Positions 3,753 through 63,194 of a stretch of 64,000 bases of DNA are shown here, piece after piece (within the stretch, counting starts at the first letter, position 1; each line of letters starts with the position of its first letter). Below the pieces are notes generated by a model. It was not told the origin of the DNA. It made no database searches and saw only the letters and a list, made by a program, of their open reading frames with translations. This DNA is from Actinotalea caeni (lineage in GTDB: Bacteria > Actinomycetota > Actinomycetes > Actinomycetales > Beutenbergiaceae). The stretch spans positions 1-64,000 of the forward strand of contig NZ_WNXX01000003.1 in NCBI RefSeq assembly GCF_009733795.1. Reading direction: 5' to 3'. The translations under genes were made by a program, and so were the position numbers.

Positions 3753-3944
3753 GTGGCCTCTACGTGTGACGTGTGCGCCAAGTCGCCGAGCTTCGGCCAC
3801 AGCATCTCGCACTCCCACCGCCGCACGAAGCGGCGTTGGAACCCCAACATCCAGACCGTCCGCGCGATGGTCGGCGGCACCAAGAAGAAGCTCAACGTCT
3901 GCACCAGCTGCCTCAAGGCCGGCAAGGTCCAGCGGGCTCTCTGA
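3753..3944 (+). CDS. rpmB: 50S ribosomal protein L28 (zinc-ribbon form)
   Basis: A 63-residue basic protein of the large ribosomal subunit. It carries the L28 signature [13 protein letters not shown] and two CxxC pairs, CDVC (5-8) and CTSC (50-53), so it is the zinc-binding (C+) form. The GTG start is preceded by a GAGGAGA Shine-Dalgarno six bases away. It stands alone, divergent from recG, and is followed by a 13-bp perfect hairpin. In zinc-limited actinobacteria the C+ form is often replaced by a cysteine-free paralog encoded elsewhere; no such paralog is in the window. Confidence 0.98.
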
Positions 3945-59346: not shown

Positions 59347-59449
59347 GGTCGGATACGAGGTGACAGTTCGCGACGAGGCGTCAGGTACGGTCGGTGCGAC
59401 GGCGCGACGCGAGCGGCCTGGCGCCGGTTCGATCCGGCCCCCGTGCGGC

Positions 59450-59455
59450 TACCGT
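59450..59455 (+). promoter_or_regulatory. Candidate -10 element (TACCGT) of the LacI-DUF6807 gene
   Basis: TANNNT match 36 bases before the GTG; TTCGAT (59428-59433) sits 16 bases upstream as a weak -35. The leader carries GAAGGAG (59476-59482). Confidence 0.35.
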
Positions 59456-59491
59456 GAACCGCTCAGCCACGCTGCGAAGGAGTACGCACCG

Positions 59492-61438
59492 GTGCGACGC
59501 CCGCCCCACGCCGCACGGCCCGCCACGATCGACGACGTCGCCCGATCGGCCGGCGTCTCGCGTGCGACCGTCTCGCGGGTGATGAACGGCAACGCATCGG
59601 TCGACGCCGCGCTCGCGAGCCGCGTGCAGGAGGCCGCGGCGGCGCTGCGGTACCAGCCGTCCACGACCGCCCGCAGCCTGTCGCTGGGCCGCACGCACAC
59701 GGTCGCCGTCGTCGTCCCCGAGCTCTCGAACCCGATGGTCCAGGAGGTGCTGCAGGGGGTGAGCGACGCCGCGCAGGAGCGCGGCTACCGGGTGCTCGTC
59801 GCCGACACCGGCGGCGACCCGGAGACGGAGCGCGCGAGCAGCACCGACGCCCGGCGCCGCTGCGACGCGCTGGTGCTCGTGGCACCGCGGCTGCCGGAGC
59901 CGGCGCTGCGCGAGCTGCTGGGTTCGCTCGCCCCTGTCGTGGTCGTCAACCGGCTCCCCGACGGCGTGACACCGACGGTCGGCGTCGACTACGCGGCCGG
60001 CACCGACCTGCTCGTCGAGCACCTGCTCGGGCTCGGGCACCGCCACCTCGCCTACCTCGCGGGGCCCCCGCTCAGCGAGTCGAACCGCACGCGGGTCGCC
60101 ACCATGCGGCGGGCGGCGGAACGCCACGCGGACGTGCGGCTCAGCGAGATCGGGGCGGGCGCGACGATCGAGTCCGGCTACCGCGCGGGCGAGGCGGTCC
60201 TGGCGACGCGCGCGACCGCCGTCGTCGCCTACAACGACCTCGTCGCCTTCGGCCTGCTCGCACGGCTCAACGAGCTCGGGGTCGCGGTGCCGGCCGACAT
60301 CTCCGTGGCCGGGTTCGACGACGTCCCGCTCGCACGGTTCGCGGTGCCGCCGCTGACCACGGTCGGGGTCTCCCACGCCGAGCTCGGCGCGACGGCGTGG
60401 CGTCAGCTGGCCGCGCTGCTCGACGGCGCCGACCGCACCGACCCGCCGCCGCGGGTGCCCACGCTGCGGCCGCGCGCGAGCACCGGCGTCGTGCCCGCGA
60501 CCGTGCGCTCGCCCGAGCGCGACCGCCGACCCGAGCCGGCCGACCCGCCGCCCCGGCTCGCGTCGGTGTCCTGGACGGTGCGCGAGTCCTCCGACGGGGC
60601 CGAGCACGTGCTGCTGGGCGCGCTGCCGGGCGGCCGGACGGTCGACCTGTGCCACGCCGTCGACGGCGCCGCGATCCCGCCGGTGCACTCCCCGCGGCCC
60701 TACCTGCACCCGGTGCGCACGGCGGGCGGGGCGGAGCTCACGGACCGCACGCCGGCCGACCACCGGCACCACTACGGGGTCTCGATGGCGGTGGCGCTCG
60801 TCAACGGCACCTCGTTCTGGGGCGGCCGCACCTGGGTGCGCGGCGAGGGCCCGACGCTGCTCGCCAACCACGGCACCCAGGTGCTGCTGGCGAGCGAGGT
60901 CGAGGGCGAGCGGCTCCGGCAGCGCATCTCCTGGACGAGCCCCACCGGCGAGGAGCTGCTGCGCGAGGACCGCACGATCACGGTCGCGCCCGACGAGCTG
61001 GGGTGGCGACTGCGGTGGCGCTCGGACCTGCACGCGCCGCACGCGGACGCCGTCGTCGAGTCGCCCGCGACGGCGGGCCGGCGCGGCGCCGGCTACGGCG
61101 GCGTCTTCTGGCGGCTCGGCCCGGCGTCGAGGACCGCGGTCCTCGCCGCCCACGGCGAGGGCGAGGAGGCGGTGCACGGCTCGATCTCGCCGTGGGTCGC
61201 GTTCGTGCAGCACCGAGGCCCCCGGGTGAGCACGCTGCTGCTCGCGCAGCGCCCGGACCACGTCCTGCCATGGTTCCTGCGCGCGTCGGACTACGTCGGG
61301 GCCGGCCCCGCGCTGGCGTGGGACACCCCGCTGACGATCGCCCGCGGCGAGACCGCCACCACCGAGCTCGCGGCCCTCCTCACCGACACCGCCCTCACCC
61401 CCGAGCAGGCCGCCACCACCACCCCCCGCCTCTGGTAG
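59492..61438 (+). CDS. LacI-family regulator fused to a DUF6807 (PmoA-like) domain
   Basis: A 648-residue two-part protein. Residues 11-60 are the LacI HTH (TIDDVARSAGVSRATVSRVM then the hinge RYQPSTTARSLSLG). Residues 67-335 are the periplasmic-binding-protein-like sensor (VAVVVPELSNPMVQEVLQGV, ISVAGFDDVPLARF). After a Pro/Arg linker, residues about 355-645 form a second domain with SPRPYLHPVRTAGG, DHRHHYGVSMAVALVNGTSF, FWRLGPASRTAV and PWVAFVQHRG, the DUF6807 pattern often annotated as PmoA-like and found in sugar-catabolic loci. It has no associated operon and sits inside the heme cluster on the opposite strand. Confidence 0.85.
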   Translation: MRRPPHAARPATIDDVARSAGVSRATVSRVMNGNASVDAALASRVQEAAAALRYQPSTTARSLSLGRTHTVAVVVPELSNPMVQEVLQGVSDAAQERGYRVLVADTGGDPETERASSTDARRRCDALVLVAPRLPEPALRELLGSLAPVVVVNRLPDGVTPTVGVDYAAGTDLLVEHLLGLGHRHLAYLAGPPLSESNRTRVATMRRAAERHADVRLSEIGAGATIESGYRAGEAVLATRATAVVAYNDLVAFGLLARLNELGVAVPADISVAGFDDVPLARFAVPPLTTVGVSHAELGATAWRQLAALLDGADRTDPPPRVPTLRPRASTGVVPATVRSPERDRRPEPADPPPRLASVSWTVRESSDGAEHVLLGALPGGRTVDLCHAVDGAAIPPVHSPRPYLHPVRTAGGAELTDRTPADHRHHYGVSMAVALVNGTSFWGGRTWVRGEGPTLLANHGTQVLLASEVEGERLRQRISWTSPTGEELLREDRTITVAPDELGWRLRWRSDLHAPHADAVVESPATAGRRGAGYGGVFWRLGPASRTAVLAAHGEGEEAVHGSISPWVAFVQHRGPRVSTLLLAQRPDHVLPWFLRASDYVGAGPALAWDTPLTIARGETATTELAALLTDTALTPEQAATTTPRLW

Positions 61439-61444
61439 CCCCCA

Positions 61445-61584
61445 CTTTCACCGCACTTTGCAACACCCCTCGCTTTCACCGCACTTTGCAACACCCCCCG
61501 CTTTCACCGCACTTTGCAACACCGCACATACTCACCGCACTTCTTGCCACGATCCCGTTTCACCGCACTTGTTGCCGCGATGCT
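61445..61584 (+). repeat. Left array: five tandem 28-bp repeats
   Basis: Units start at 61445, 61473, 61501, 61529 and 61557, exactly 28 bases apart. All share TTTCACCGCACTT or a close variant in the same phase. Units 1-3 continue TGCAACACC (type A); units 4-5 continue with a CTTGCC or GTTGCC core (type B). The array begins six bases after the LacI-DUF6807 stop. Confidence 0.95.
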
Positions 61585-61687
61585 TCGACGATCGGCGCAT
61601 CGGGCGGGGTGCAGGGCAGCAGCCCGAGTCCGCAGGATCCGTTGCGTCTCAGCCCCAACAGCTGGGCGCTCCACTGAGCGGCGAGGC
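61585..61687. other. Unique 103-base centre between the two arrays
   Basis: I see no gene, promoter or T-tract here. Short self-complementary pieces (for example CGATGC / GCATCG spanning 61578-61602) would add to a cruciform loop. Confidence 0.4.
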
Positions 61688-61853
61688 TGCCCAGTGTTCG
61701 ACGGTGCGGTGAGAGCGGGGCGGCAAGAAGTGCGGTGAAAGTGGGCCGAGGCAGAAAGTGCGGTGAGAGTGAGAGGTGTTGCAAAGTGCGGTGAAAGCGG
61801 GGGGTGTTGCACAGTGCGGTGAAAGTGGAGGGTGTTGCACAGTGCGGTGACAG
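61688..61853 (-). repeat. Right array: six 28-bp repeats in inverted orientation
   Basis: Read on the minus strand, units end at 61853, 61825, 61797, 61769, 61741 and 61715. Spacing is 28 bases except the innermost, which overlaps its neighbour by two. The three units nearest hemG are type A (GCAACACC or a one-base variant). The next two are type B-like, and the innermost is degenerate. The array ends three bases before the hemG stop codon. Confidence 0.95.
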
Positions 61854-61856
61854 TGG

Positions 61857-63194
61857 TCAGGCGAGGAGGCGGGCGGCGGCGGCGCGGGCGTCGGCGATCG
61901 TCCACGCGAGGCCGGTGCCGGCGAGCCAGCCACCCGTGAGGGCGAGGTCGGTGCGGTCGGTGACCGCTTCGCGCATGGCGGCGCGCTGCTCCGTCATGCC
62001 GGACTCGATCGCCGAGCGCGGCATCAGCCAGCGGGTGCGGTCGGCGGCGAGGACGTCGTCGTCGGTCCAGGTGGCGCCGGTCAGCGCGGCGGCGTCGGCC
62101 AGGGCCTGCCGGGTGACGACGTCGTCCGGGTCGTCGAGCGCGTCGTAGGTGAGCCGTAGCACCTCGCGGCCGCGCGCGTCCTCCGCCAGCCAGTCCCACT
62201 TCGCGGTCGAGTAGGTGAGCGCACGCGCCCGCACCCGACCACCGCCGTCGGCGACGATCACACCCGCGCGGCGACCGCCGCCGTCGTGCGCGACGACGAG
62301 GGTGACGACGTCGACCGGTCGCGGCTGCGGCCACGCCCGCGCGATCGCGCCGATCGCCTCCGGGACACCGCTCGGCCACCACCACGGCGGGCACGCGAGC
62401 AGCAGCCCGTCGCCGTGCACCACCGCGTCGTCGGTGGTGCGCACGCGCCACCCCTGCAGGTCCGGCTCGACGGCGACCGCACCGCCCTCGACGATCTGCC
62501 CGCCCAGCGTGGTGACCTCGCCGACCAGCGCGTGCACGACCTGGAAGATGCCTCCCCGCAGCCCGGCCAGCTCGCCGTTGCCGCCGCGCAGCGCCGCGGC
62601 GAGCGAGCCCTTCTCGGCCAGCCGCGCGCGCACCCCGGGCAGCAGCACCTCCGGGTCGACGGCGTCGATGTCGAGCCGGTGCACGCCGGCCACCAGCGGC
62701 GCTGGCCACGCGCGCATCACCCCCTCACCCATCCGGGTGCGCACGAGGGTGCCGAGCGTCTGGGCGTCCGCCCCGACCGTGCCGGGCAGCGTCTCGTCCT
62801 GCCGCGCGCGGGCGGCGGCCTCCTCCCCCAGCGCGTCGAGCGCGGGGTCGTCCAGACGGGTCGGGATACCGAGGACGGCACCGTCGGGGATGCGGGTCGC
62901 GCCGTCGGGCCGGTGGACCCACGTGCCGGTCGGTCGCGGCGAGGTCACCCGGTCGGCCAGCCCCAGCTCCTCGAGCAGCGACACGACGGCGCCGCCGCGT
63001 GTGGCGAACCCCTCCGCCCCGACATCGACCGCCAGCCCGTCGAGCGTGCGGGAGCTGACCGAGCCACCGGTCGAGCCGCCCTCGAGGACGACGACCGGGT
63101 AGCCCGCGCGAGCGAGGTCGCGCGCCGCGGTGAGCCCGGCGACGCCGCCGCCGACGACGACCTTGACGCCCGAGAGCCCGGACCTGCGCACCAC
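61857..63194 (-). CDS. hemG: Coproporphyrinogen III oxidase (HemG/HemY-type flavoprotein)
   Basis: In this pathway the FAD enzyme (HemY, also called CgoX) oxidises coproporphyrinogen III to coproporphyrin III. The 445-residue protein starts with VVVGGGVAGLTAARDLARAG and LEGGSTGGSVSSRTLDG, has VDVGAEGFATRGGAVVSLL, and ends LALTGGWLAGTGLAWTIADA, the C-terminal FAD motif. The first of two adjacent GTGs is chosen; GGGAG lies nine bases upstream. It follows hemE by 13 bases. Its 3' end abuts the inverted repeat array. hemG is used as the symbol; hemY or cgoX would be equally valid. Confidence 0.93.
   Translation of the reverse strand: MVRRSGLSGVKVVVGGGVAGLTAARDLARAGYPVVVLEGGSTGGSVSSRTLDGLAVDVGAEGFATRGGAVVSLLEELGLADRVTSPRPTGTWVHRPDGATRIPDGAVLGIPTRLDDPALDALGEEAAARARQDETLPGTVGADAQTLGTLVRTRMGEGVMRAWPAPLVAGVHRLDIDAVDPEVLLPGVRARLAEKGSLAAALRGGNGELAGLRGGIFQVVHALVGEVTTLGGQIVEGGAVAVEPDLQGWRVRTTDDAVVHGDGLLLACPPWWWPSGVPEAIGAIARAWPQPRPVDVVTLVVAHDGGGRRAGVIVADGGGRVRARALTYSTAKWDWLAEDARGREVLRLTYDALDDPDDVVTRQALADAAALTGATWTDDDVLAADRTRWLMPRSAIESGMTEQRAAMREAVTDRTDLALTGGWLAGTGLAWTIADARAAAARLLA

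Follow-up and report, generated by a model that had tools for sequence, protein, structure and literature searches.

Stop-codon-anchored, often mirrored 28-bp repeat arrays in Pseudactinotalea as candidate polar modules for transcription termination

Introduction

In the 64,000-nucleotide stretch of DNA analyzed here (hereafter, the window), the gap between two convergent stop codons, one ending at 61438 and the other starting at 61857, is filled by mirrored arrays of a 28-bp repeat. What are these arrays, and what might they do at the ends of the genes that they abut? The question bears on how transcription ends in high-GC actinobacteria, a subject that is poorly settled, as classical terminators composed of a hairpin and a U-run are scarce there. 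The arrays provide natural replicates, as one module is present at some 30 gene ends, a sister species shares sites that bear other unit sequences and array-free versions of the junctions exist. Two questions become open to direct test: does any bacterial factor other than Rho terminate transcription at a specific sequence, and by what route do non-coding repeats scattered over a genome come to differ in concert from one species to the next? If Rho were to explain the arrays, they would represent modular rut sites and possible bidirectional insulators in high-GC hosts.

Results

Anatomy of the arrays in the window

The locus comprises the following features:

59492..61438, + strand: upstream convergent gene, a LacI-type regulator with a fused DUF6807 domain (Pfam LacI 1e-14, Peripla_BP_3 2.5e-31, DUF6807 5.5e-56)
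61444..61583, + strand: left arm, five direct 28-bp units, type A at 61444, 61472 and 61500 and type B at 61528 and 61556; sense to the upstream gene
61584..61694, no strand: centre without units, between the left arm and the degenerate unit
61695..61720, - strand: degenerate sixth inverted unit, score 10 of about 44, 2 bp out of the 28-bp register
61721..61854, - strand: right arm, five inverted 28-bp units, type B at 61721 and 61749 and type A at 61777, 61805 and 61833; sense to the opposite gene
61857..63194, - strand: opposite convergent gene, a flavin amine-oxidoreductase, hemY-like (protoporphyrinogen oxidase; Pfam Amino_oxidase 1.5e-15)

The regulator and its DUF6807 domain lie within a single open frame (window 59360-61438), in which the start of the gene is uncertain, its call being based on codon usage. 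The opposite gene has a uroporphyrinogen decarboxylase gene as its neighbour (Pfam URO-D 1.8e-78), and the name hemY is a probable one taken from that neighbourhood.

Direct cores (TCACCGCACTT) were identified at 61448, 61476, 61504, 61532 and 61560, 28 apart, and inverted cores at 61728, 61756 and 61784 (exact) and at 61812 and 61840 (one mismatch each), with the same spacing. Allowing no more than one mismatch, there are 10 matches to TCACCGCACTT in the 64 kb versus 0.57 expected, a number that was reached by none of 100 shuffles. The two arms form an inverted repeat (61442-61578/61720-61856) that is 87% complementary over 137 nt. The first unit of the left arm begins 5 bp past the stop codon of the upstream gene, and the outermost unit of the right arm is 2 bp from that of the opposite gene. 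A comparison of masked centres and flanks produced no match between the centre of the window element and other loci.

A preliminary description of this locus had counted five direct and six inverted copies, of which the five direct and five of the inverted units are clear, whereas the sixth inverted unit is degenerate and off register. Its placement of type A units beside the genes and of type B units toward the centre held for both arms, as did its distances from the arrays to the two stop codons. Its exclusion of CRISPR was also confirmed, as there are no unique spacers and the units are contiguous at 28 bp. It had further considered that the inverted half might be an assembly artefact, which is unlikely because three separate assemblies of the genus, which constitute the evidence on this point, have one and the same architecture.

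Unit sequence and distribution

In the 4.0-Mb genome from which the window derives there are 113 copies of TCACCGCACTT (58 forward and 55 reverse), versus 0 for a reversed-word control. As read from position lists, these copies form about 33 clusters, and the number of array loci in this genome is ~30. The window and 31 further stretches, which jointly hold all 113 copies, were studied. A weight matrix identified 171 units in the window and 30 of the other stretches, with a single weak unit in L056 and none in L065. Each 28-bp unit consists of ~22 conserved bases near SNTTTCACCGCACTTTGSAACA and ~6 variable bases (the linker). The number of units per arm ranges from 1 to 7 and is usually 2 to 5. 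The pitch is nearly invariant: the spacing between neighbours is exactly 28 in 106 of 116 cases in the window's genome and in 63 of 73 and 9 of 10 in the two other genomes of the genus, for a total of 178 of 199.

Forward and reverse copies of TCACCGCACTT in the three Pseudactinotalea genomes number 58/55 (the window's genome), 34/30 and 1/2, and the 13-mer was present in 3 of 24 genomes of the family, all of them Pseudactinotalea. With the match relaxed to as many as 3 mismatches, a tandem pair was detected in three of 396 order genomes, each a Pseudactinotalea (60/52, 43/30 and 10/6 copies; backwards control 1/0), and in none of the 393 outside that genus; the exact TCACCGCACTT tandem pair was present in two of the 396. 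An exact TTTCACCGCACTT tandem pair identified 11 stretches, all from P. suaedae, in a contig collection that possibly leaves out the window's genome, and the P. suaedae-type unit was found in 0 of 394 genomes of the class, a sample without the two sister species. We also scanned 20 stretches of 20 kb from 12 family genomes of other genera, as well as 21 short hemY loci, for repeats irrespective of their unit, using only six shuffles per gap as the reference. The scan produced 19 hits among 397 junctions outside the genus, most of them only one copy above the shuffles and two with ~19-bp spacing (L190 and L120).

The units differ between species over dispersed loci, based on the sequence that accompanies the core word. 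It is followed by AACA in 98 of 123 units of the window's genome, whereas in P. suaedae AACA follows in none of 98 units and CGAC or CGGC in 71 of 98; the P. suaedae stretches were picked by the C form of the core word, so that the A form is under-sampled among them. In the third species (G002) the fifth core base is A and the word is mostly AAGTGCGTT (16 of 18 units). P. suaedae also has a variant 28-bp unit, TTTCAACACGATTC, which lies next to the ordinary TTTCAACGCACTT within one arm (L088, about 3830-3890) and is present at L139 (2899-2985) as well.

Intact units contain AAGTGCGGT, the uptake signal of the Pasteurellaceae, of which there are 8 copies in the window (the first at 61450-61458), and in both cases inverted pairs are located at gene ends (PMC1852404). 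That the arrays are themselves DNA uptake signals is nevertheless extremely improbable, and this candidate was rejected: all 8 window copies are inside the array, as against 927-1,516 genome copies in Pasteurellaceae (PMC1852404), the 113 copies of TCACCGCACTT per genome compare with the many hundred required, and the third species mostly has AAGTGCGTT instead. The identity of the 9-mer with the Pasteurellaceae signal is likely a chance resemblance.

The array sequence had no matches in viral, plasmid or phage collections, and an origin from a phage or plasmid was dropped on this account. No Rfam model matched up to E 1 within 61200-62100. Among the matches listed in a search of titles and abstract openings of the open-access literature, there was no account of such arrays.

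Placement of the arrays relative to genes

To categorize the junctions we used our own codon-usage gene calls, which are not curated, and pooled the three species. The arrays occupy 64 junctions, of which 31 are convergent, another 31 codirectional and two divergent, versus 46, 260 and 61, respectively, of 367 other junctions in the same stretches. Convergent junctions are therefore enriched at arrays (odds 6.6, p 5e-10), while the depletion of divergent relative to codirectional junctions is not significant (p 0.09). At the same time, the ~30 array loci of the window's genome are few beside the several hundred convergent junctions expected genome-wide, as extrapolated from seven in the 64-kb window.

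The stop codon is a better anchor for the arrays than the convergent junction. There is a stop codon behind 80 of 104 arms, so that the arm reads away from it, and 69 of these 80 are within 40 bp of it (median 9.5 bp). The remaining 11 start more than 40 bp away, seven of them more than 100 bp, and in several arms the first unit overlaps the stop codon itself (TGATTTCA). The other 24 of the 104 arms face a start codon, at a median of 70 bp. Both arms are present at 40 of the 64 junctions and a single arm at 24, some of the single arms being halves of pairs separated by a gene. Wherever the strand switches, the direct arm precedes the inverted arm in 46 of 48 cases, the exceptions being L054 and, with a weak unit, L079. 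The possibilities raised in the preliminary description, that copies would be confined to convergent junctions and always mirrored, were thus not upheld, as only 31 of 64 junctions are convergent and 24 are one-armed. The case that it had named as fatal to its account, copies scattered singly without mirroring or regard to gene orientation, is contradicted by the order of the arms and by their reading away from stop codons.

Predicted genes lie between the arms at L059, L061, L064, L070 and L079. In L064 (4210-5133) and L078 (3030-3920), a weak codon-usage gene is bracketed by arms in both species, 57% identical. In P. suaedae, one gene seems to run into an array and to stop inside one unit, as if its end had been replaced (L084, 3950-4050).

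Orthologous junctions in relatives

Twenty-three array loci of the window's genome were compared with their counterparts in the relatives; L057 was queried and had no clear counterpart, and L042, L054, L056, L058, L062, L067 and L070, which include most of the odd-orientation loci, were outside this comparison. An array adjoins the orthologous gene end in P. suaedae at seven loci, three of them with changed neighbours, and the units at the shared loci are species-specific:

Shared array loci, window's genome/P. suaedae: L045/L087, L047/L097, L048/L077, L049/L086, L055/L093, L064/L078, L068/L083

Both flanking genes are adjacent in P. suaedae at 13 loci, of which four have recognised units, one has a variant unit identified by eye (L139) and eight have none. 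In G002 a recognised array was present at none of 22 counterpart places (12 with both genes adjacent), although arrays exist elsewhere in that genome, and two P. suaedae arrays have G002 counterparts (L094/L099 and L098/L100). Several array-free junctions are very tight. At the window junction in G002 the stop codons overlap by 4 bp, in the P. suaedae counterparts of L050 and L051 the genes stand 3 and 2 bp apart, and in the G002 counterparts of L048 and L049 they stand 22 and 24 bp apart; at these five junctions the gap is thus -4 to 24 bp in a relative versus 308-444 bp with arrays in the window's genome. With three genomes, such differences could represent either gain here or loss there, and the flanks of the empty sites are too diverged for target-site duplications to be judged. 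At some junctions the relatives have other mirrored or alternating repeats in place of the arrays (L138, L144, L154, L156, L167 and L168).

These filled and empty sites are what would be expected of a selfish or neutral repeat family that is tolerated behind stop codons, spreads by copying, is homogenised by gene conversion or unequal exchange and has no function for the cell. Also in keeping with such a family are the greater likeness of linkers within an arm than between loci, which suggests tandem duplication, the P. suaedae gene that apparently ends inside an array (L084) and the flanks that L058 and L059 share beside their left arms. We nonetheless consider it unlikely, as a purely selfish family would account for the turnover but not for the kept places (seven loci with P. 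suaedae and two between the relatives) or the unlike linkers: linkers differ while cores agree, which is not what recent copying would leave. In addition, no shared interior was seen, L058 and L059 matching over 199 bp at 69% and 39 bp at 92% and the other matches, not each of which was inspected, spanning 20-95 bp. There were no matches in the mobile-element collections noted above, and the Y1 transposase (PF01797) was found in none of the three genomes of the genus, the control being positive in 5 of 14; on the latter basis a REP/RAYT origin was rejected. A transposon or MITE with a shared core was also rejected, given that only L058 and L059 share more than 95 bp.

Comparison of arms and linkers

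Type B units (TGCC) are concentrated toward the centre of the arrays. In the window's genome they make up 20 of 50 inner, 10 of 65 middle and two of 50 outer units (inner versus outer, p 1.7e-5), and the relatives show a similar but less marked tendency (10 of 45, one of 38 and one of 45; p 0.007). Identity between linkers within one arm is 0.57 in the window's genome and 0.60 in P. suaedae, versus 0.48 and 0.47 between loci, which argues for tandem duplication. Same-index linkers of facing arms are no more alike than those of permuted arms (p 0.495 and 0.611, respectively). Any-to-any similarity between arms is slightly raised in the window's genome (p 0.014; best pair p 0.004) and is not raised in P. 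suaedae (p 0.708; best pair p 0.287). The arms of the window mirror one another in the type and order of their units, as had been claimed, but the claim does not extend to the individual letters, the linkers over many loci mismatching index by index. Since the same-index linkers are unlike, the proposal that one arm is an inverse duplicate of the other, or is maintained by exchange between them, finds no support as a general mechanism. The arms of L046 do, by eye, resemble an inverted duplicate. In our reading, arms probably lengthen as units are duplicated in tandem, and the two arms then evolve mostly independently while selection acts on the core.

A core that is nearly invariant while linkers at different loci share so little identity would fit a protein-binding DNA array, in which a putative protein would occupy successive non-palindromic sites of 22 bp, arranged head to tail and spaced at 28 bp, and would act at gene ends as an insulator or a polar roadblock. 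The kept pitch agrees with this, as does the species-specific 3' half of the unit, which a co-evolving binder would produce, and the inner type B units would represent a second consensus. However, different unit variants occur within a single genome (as at L139) and in one case within a single arm (L088), and binding of DNA does not predict the G-poor sense strand described below. Overall, this reading is possible but somewhat doubtful.

RNA composition and folding

The predicted sense RNA of the arms differs from other 3' ends in its composition. Comparing 50 sense arms with 72 array-free 3' ends in the window's genome, the G content was 0.196 versus 0.369, C/G was 1.94 versus 1.11 and the folding energy per nt was -0.20 versus -0.51; all three differed in the same direction in P. 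suaedae (36 versus 45). The C/G skew arises because G is low and C ordinary, as the C content was not raised (0.393 versus 0.405, p 0.52, in the window's genome and 0.405 versus 0.381, p 0.08, in P. suaedae). YC dimers were not enriched either, being fewer in the window's genome (14 versus 16, p 0.002) and 18 versus 16 in P. suaedae (p 0.08).

Using our own re-coding of the RUT step of RhoTermPredict (PMC6407284), we determined the best RUT-like 78-nt segment for each gene end. C/G in this segment exceeded 2 at 71% of 59 sense-array gene ends versus 9% of 127 others (p 1.6e-13), and no qualifying segment was present at 7% versus 20%. Past the open reading frame, such gene ends thus tend to have a tract of ~78 nt in which C outweighs G and the cytosines are spaced out, without C-richness or YC enrichment. 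In composition, sense-arm RNA resembles the rut description in PMC6407284, a likeness that is not proof; the optimal rut features for Mycobacterium Rho are stated to be unknown in PMC4499133. In the region from 61200 to 62000 of the window, the only locus searched in this way, no site resembling an intrinsic terminator (GC-rich hairpin and T run) was found. At L096 a GC-rich hairpin was seen by eye between the stop codon and the array.

When the whole window element is folded as one RNA, it reaches -301 kcal/mol (z -22.9), which none of 100 shuffles equalled. In contrast, neither arm alone folds better than its own shuffles (z -0.61 and -0.88), and the weak structure of the arms is thus an effect of composition. 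The stem of about 140 bp that had been predicted from the sequence accordingly stands as 137 nt of 87% complementarity, but it needs an RNA that contains both arms. Were both arms transcribed together, they could pair as an RNA hairpin device that stabilises 3' ends, is cut by RNase III or gates the overlap of convergent mRNAs. Such a device is quite improbable: the unmatched same-index linkers indicate that, beyond the cores, pairing as such has not been kept, 24 of 64 junctions are one-armed, and predicted genes separate the arms at the five loci named above.

Other repeat families in the genus

Pseudactinotalea has a second family, of 19-bp units (CGANNTCGNACC plus 7), often with two units in each orientation within about 68 bp (L046 4275; L077 6741; L138 2340; L206 1501; L212 1501; L218 2001; L221 2001 and others). 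Across the three Pseudactinotalea genomes its tandem pairs number 11/12, 9/10 and 1/1, against 2/0 in one genome of another genus (G003); in all, 4 of 297 genomes of the order had such pairs. Like the 28-bp arrays, it has tandem units mirrored about a short centre. Unlike them, it is not anchored to stop codons, since 6 of 29 clusters examined lie in divergent gaps. A third kind of array, tandem or mirrored with a 31-bp pitch, was noted in P. suaedae and G002 (L144 2097-2230; L147 1121-1200 and 2492-2600; L162 2489-2600; L167 2889-3037; L168 2922-2970), and tandem repeats that recur every 52 bp were seen in further gaps of the genome to which the window belongs (L043 5784-6060; L056 3279-4420). 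The G002 counterpart of one array site (L154 1543-1846) has nine alternating GGTGGTGGCTCAGCG-like words in a layout closer to BIME.

Discussion

A proposed polar termination module

Our tentative reading, drawn from sequence comparisons and given a probability of roughly 0.4, is that the arms are polar termination modules, mirrored where traffic is two-way and read by Rho, a sequence-specific factor or both. Polar termination is favoured by the stop-codon anchoring, the orientation of the arms and the C-over-G skew. Each arm would serve as a 3'-end module for the gene that it abuts. Past the stop codon, with ribosomes off, polymerase would transcribe G-poor, weakly structured 28-nt units in which C is twice as abundant as G; such a tract would allow rut-like loading of Rho, and transcription would end in the gap, ahead of the opposite gene. 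Where transcription arrives from two sides, from convergent genes or from a promoter that may fire backward at codirectional junctions, facing arms would form a bidirectional terminator. Arms would grow via tandem duplication.

Rho alone would leave the near-invariant TTTCAMCGCACTT, the 28-bp pitch and the inner type B units unexplained, the core being over-conserved for a rut site. What speaks for a sequence-specific factor is the conservation of the core and of the pitch, together with units that differ by species and the presence of type B units. As the core of 22 bp hardly varies within a species yet differs between species, such a reader, on DNA or nascent RNA, is probable. It could act with Rho or by itself as a DNA roadblock. 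Points against the termination module are the ordinary C content and the lack of enrichment in YC dimers, which are what Rho contacts, the 24 arms that face a start codon, the small number of loci relative to convergent junctions, and the prospect that read-through RNA would pair the arms and mask the tract. Of the functions suggested in the preliminary description, termination device and protein-binding array both remain leading readings, whereas control by an RNA-level hairpin is weak.

Comparison with known systems

None of the known families that were tested fits the arrays in full. The uptake-signal terminators of Haemophilus and Neisseria likewise carry a short conserved word in inverted pairs at the ends of genes, with the same 9-mer AAGTGCGGT, and close inverted uptake-signal pairs sit in Pasteurellaceae terminators (PMC1852404); the present arrays, however, are tandem at fixed pitch, their word is not kept across the genus and in the window it is limited to the array. 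Rho-dependent terminators (PMC6407284) share with the arms an RNA past the stop codon that is G-poor, has C above G, is weakly structured and, at three or more units, extends for at least 70-80 nt. They differ in that the arrays consist of a near-invariant tandem unit at fixed pitch, often mirrored, in which C and YC are unenriched, and any action of Rho on them is presumed. REP/BIME elements with their RAYT transposases (PMC2817692) are also dispersed extragenic repeats with more than 100 copies per genome and proposed roles in protein binding or termination. Their orientation alternates, whereas array arms are uniform (46 of 48 switches direct-then-inverted), and no palindrome is apparent in the 28-bp unit, consistent with the fold of the single window arms. 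CRISPR arrays are similarly tandem with a 28-bp repeat pitch, but the arrays described here have no spacers, are mirrored and carry a variable linker of ~6 nt.

Among eukaryotic terminators, TTF-I binds the Sal boxes behind rRNA genes. By analogy, Sal-box arrays are polar, tandem and non-palindromic sites behind a transcription unit; they differ in being eukaryotic and restricted to rRNA genes, while the 28-bp arrays follow ordinary protein genes, are often mirrored and have a putative binder only. It is a doubtful but attractive extension of this analogy that in Pseudactinotalea a dedicated factor, co-evolving with its tandem 28-bp sites, may end transcription at chosen gene ends, as a counterpart of the polar terminator arrays of eukaryotic rRNA genes that would have been built where the genes of relatives overlap or touch, and mirrored for two-way traffic.
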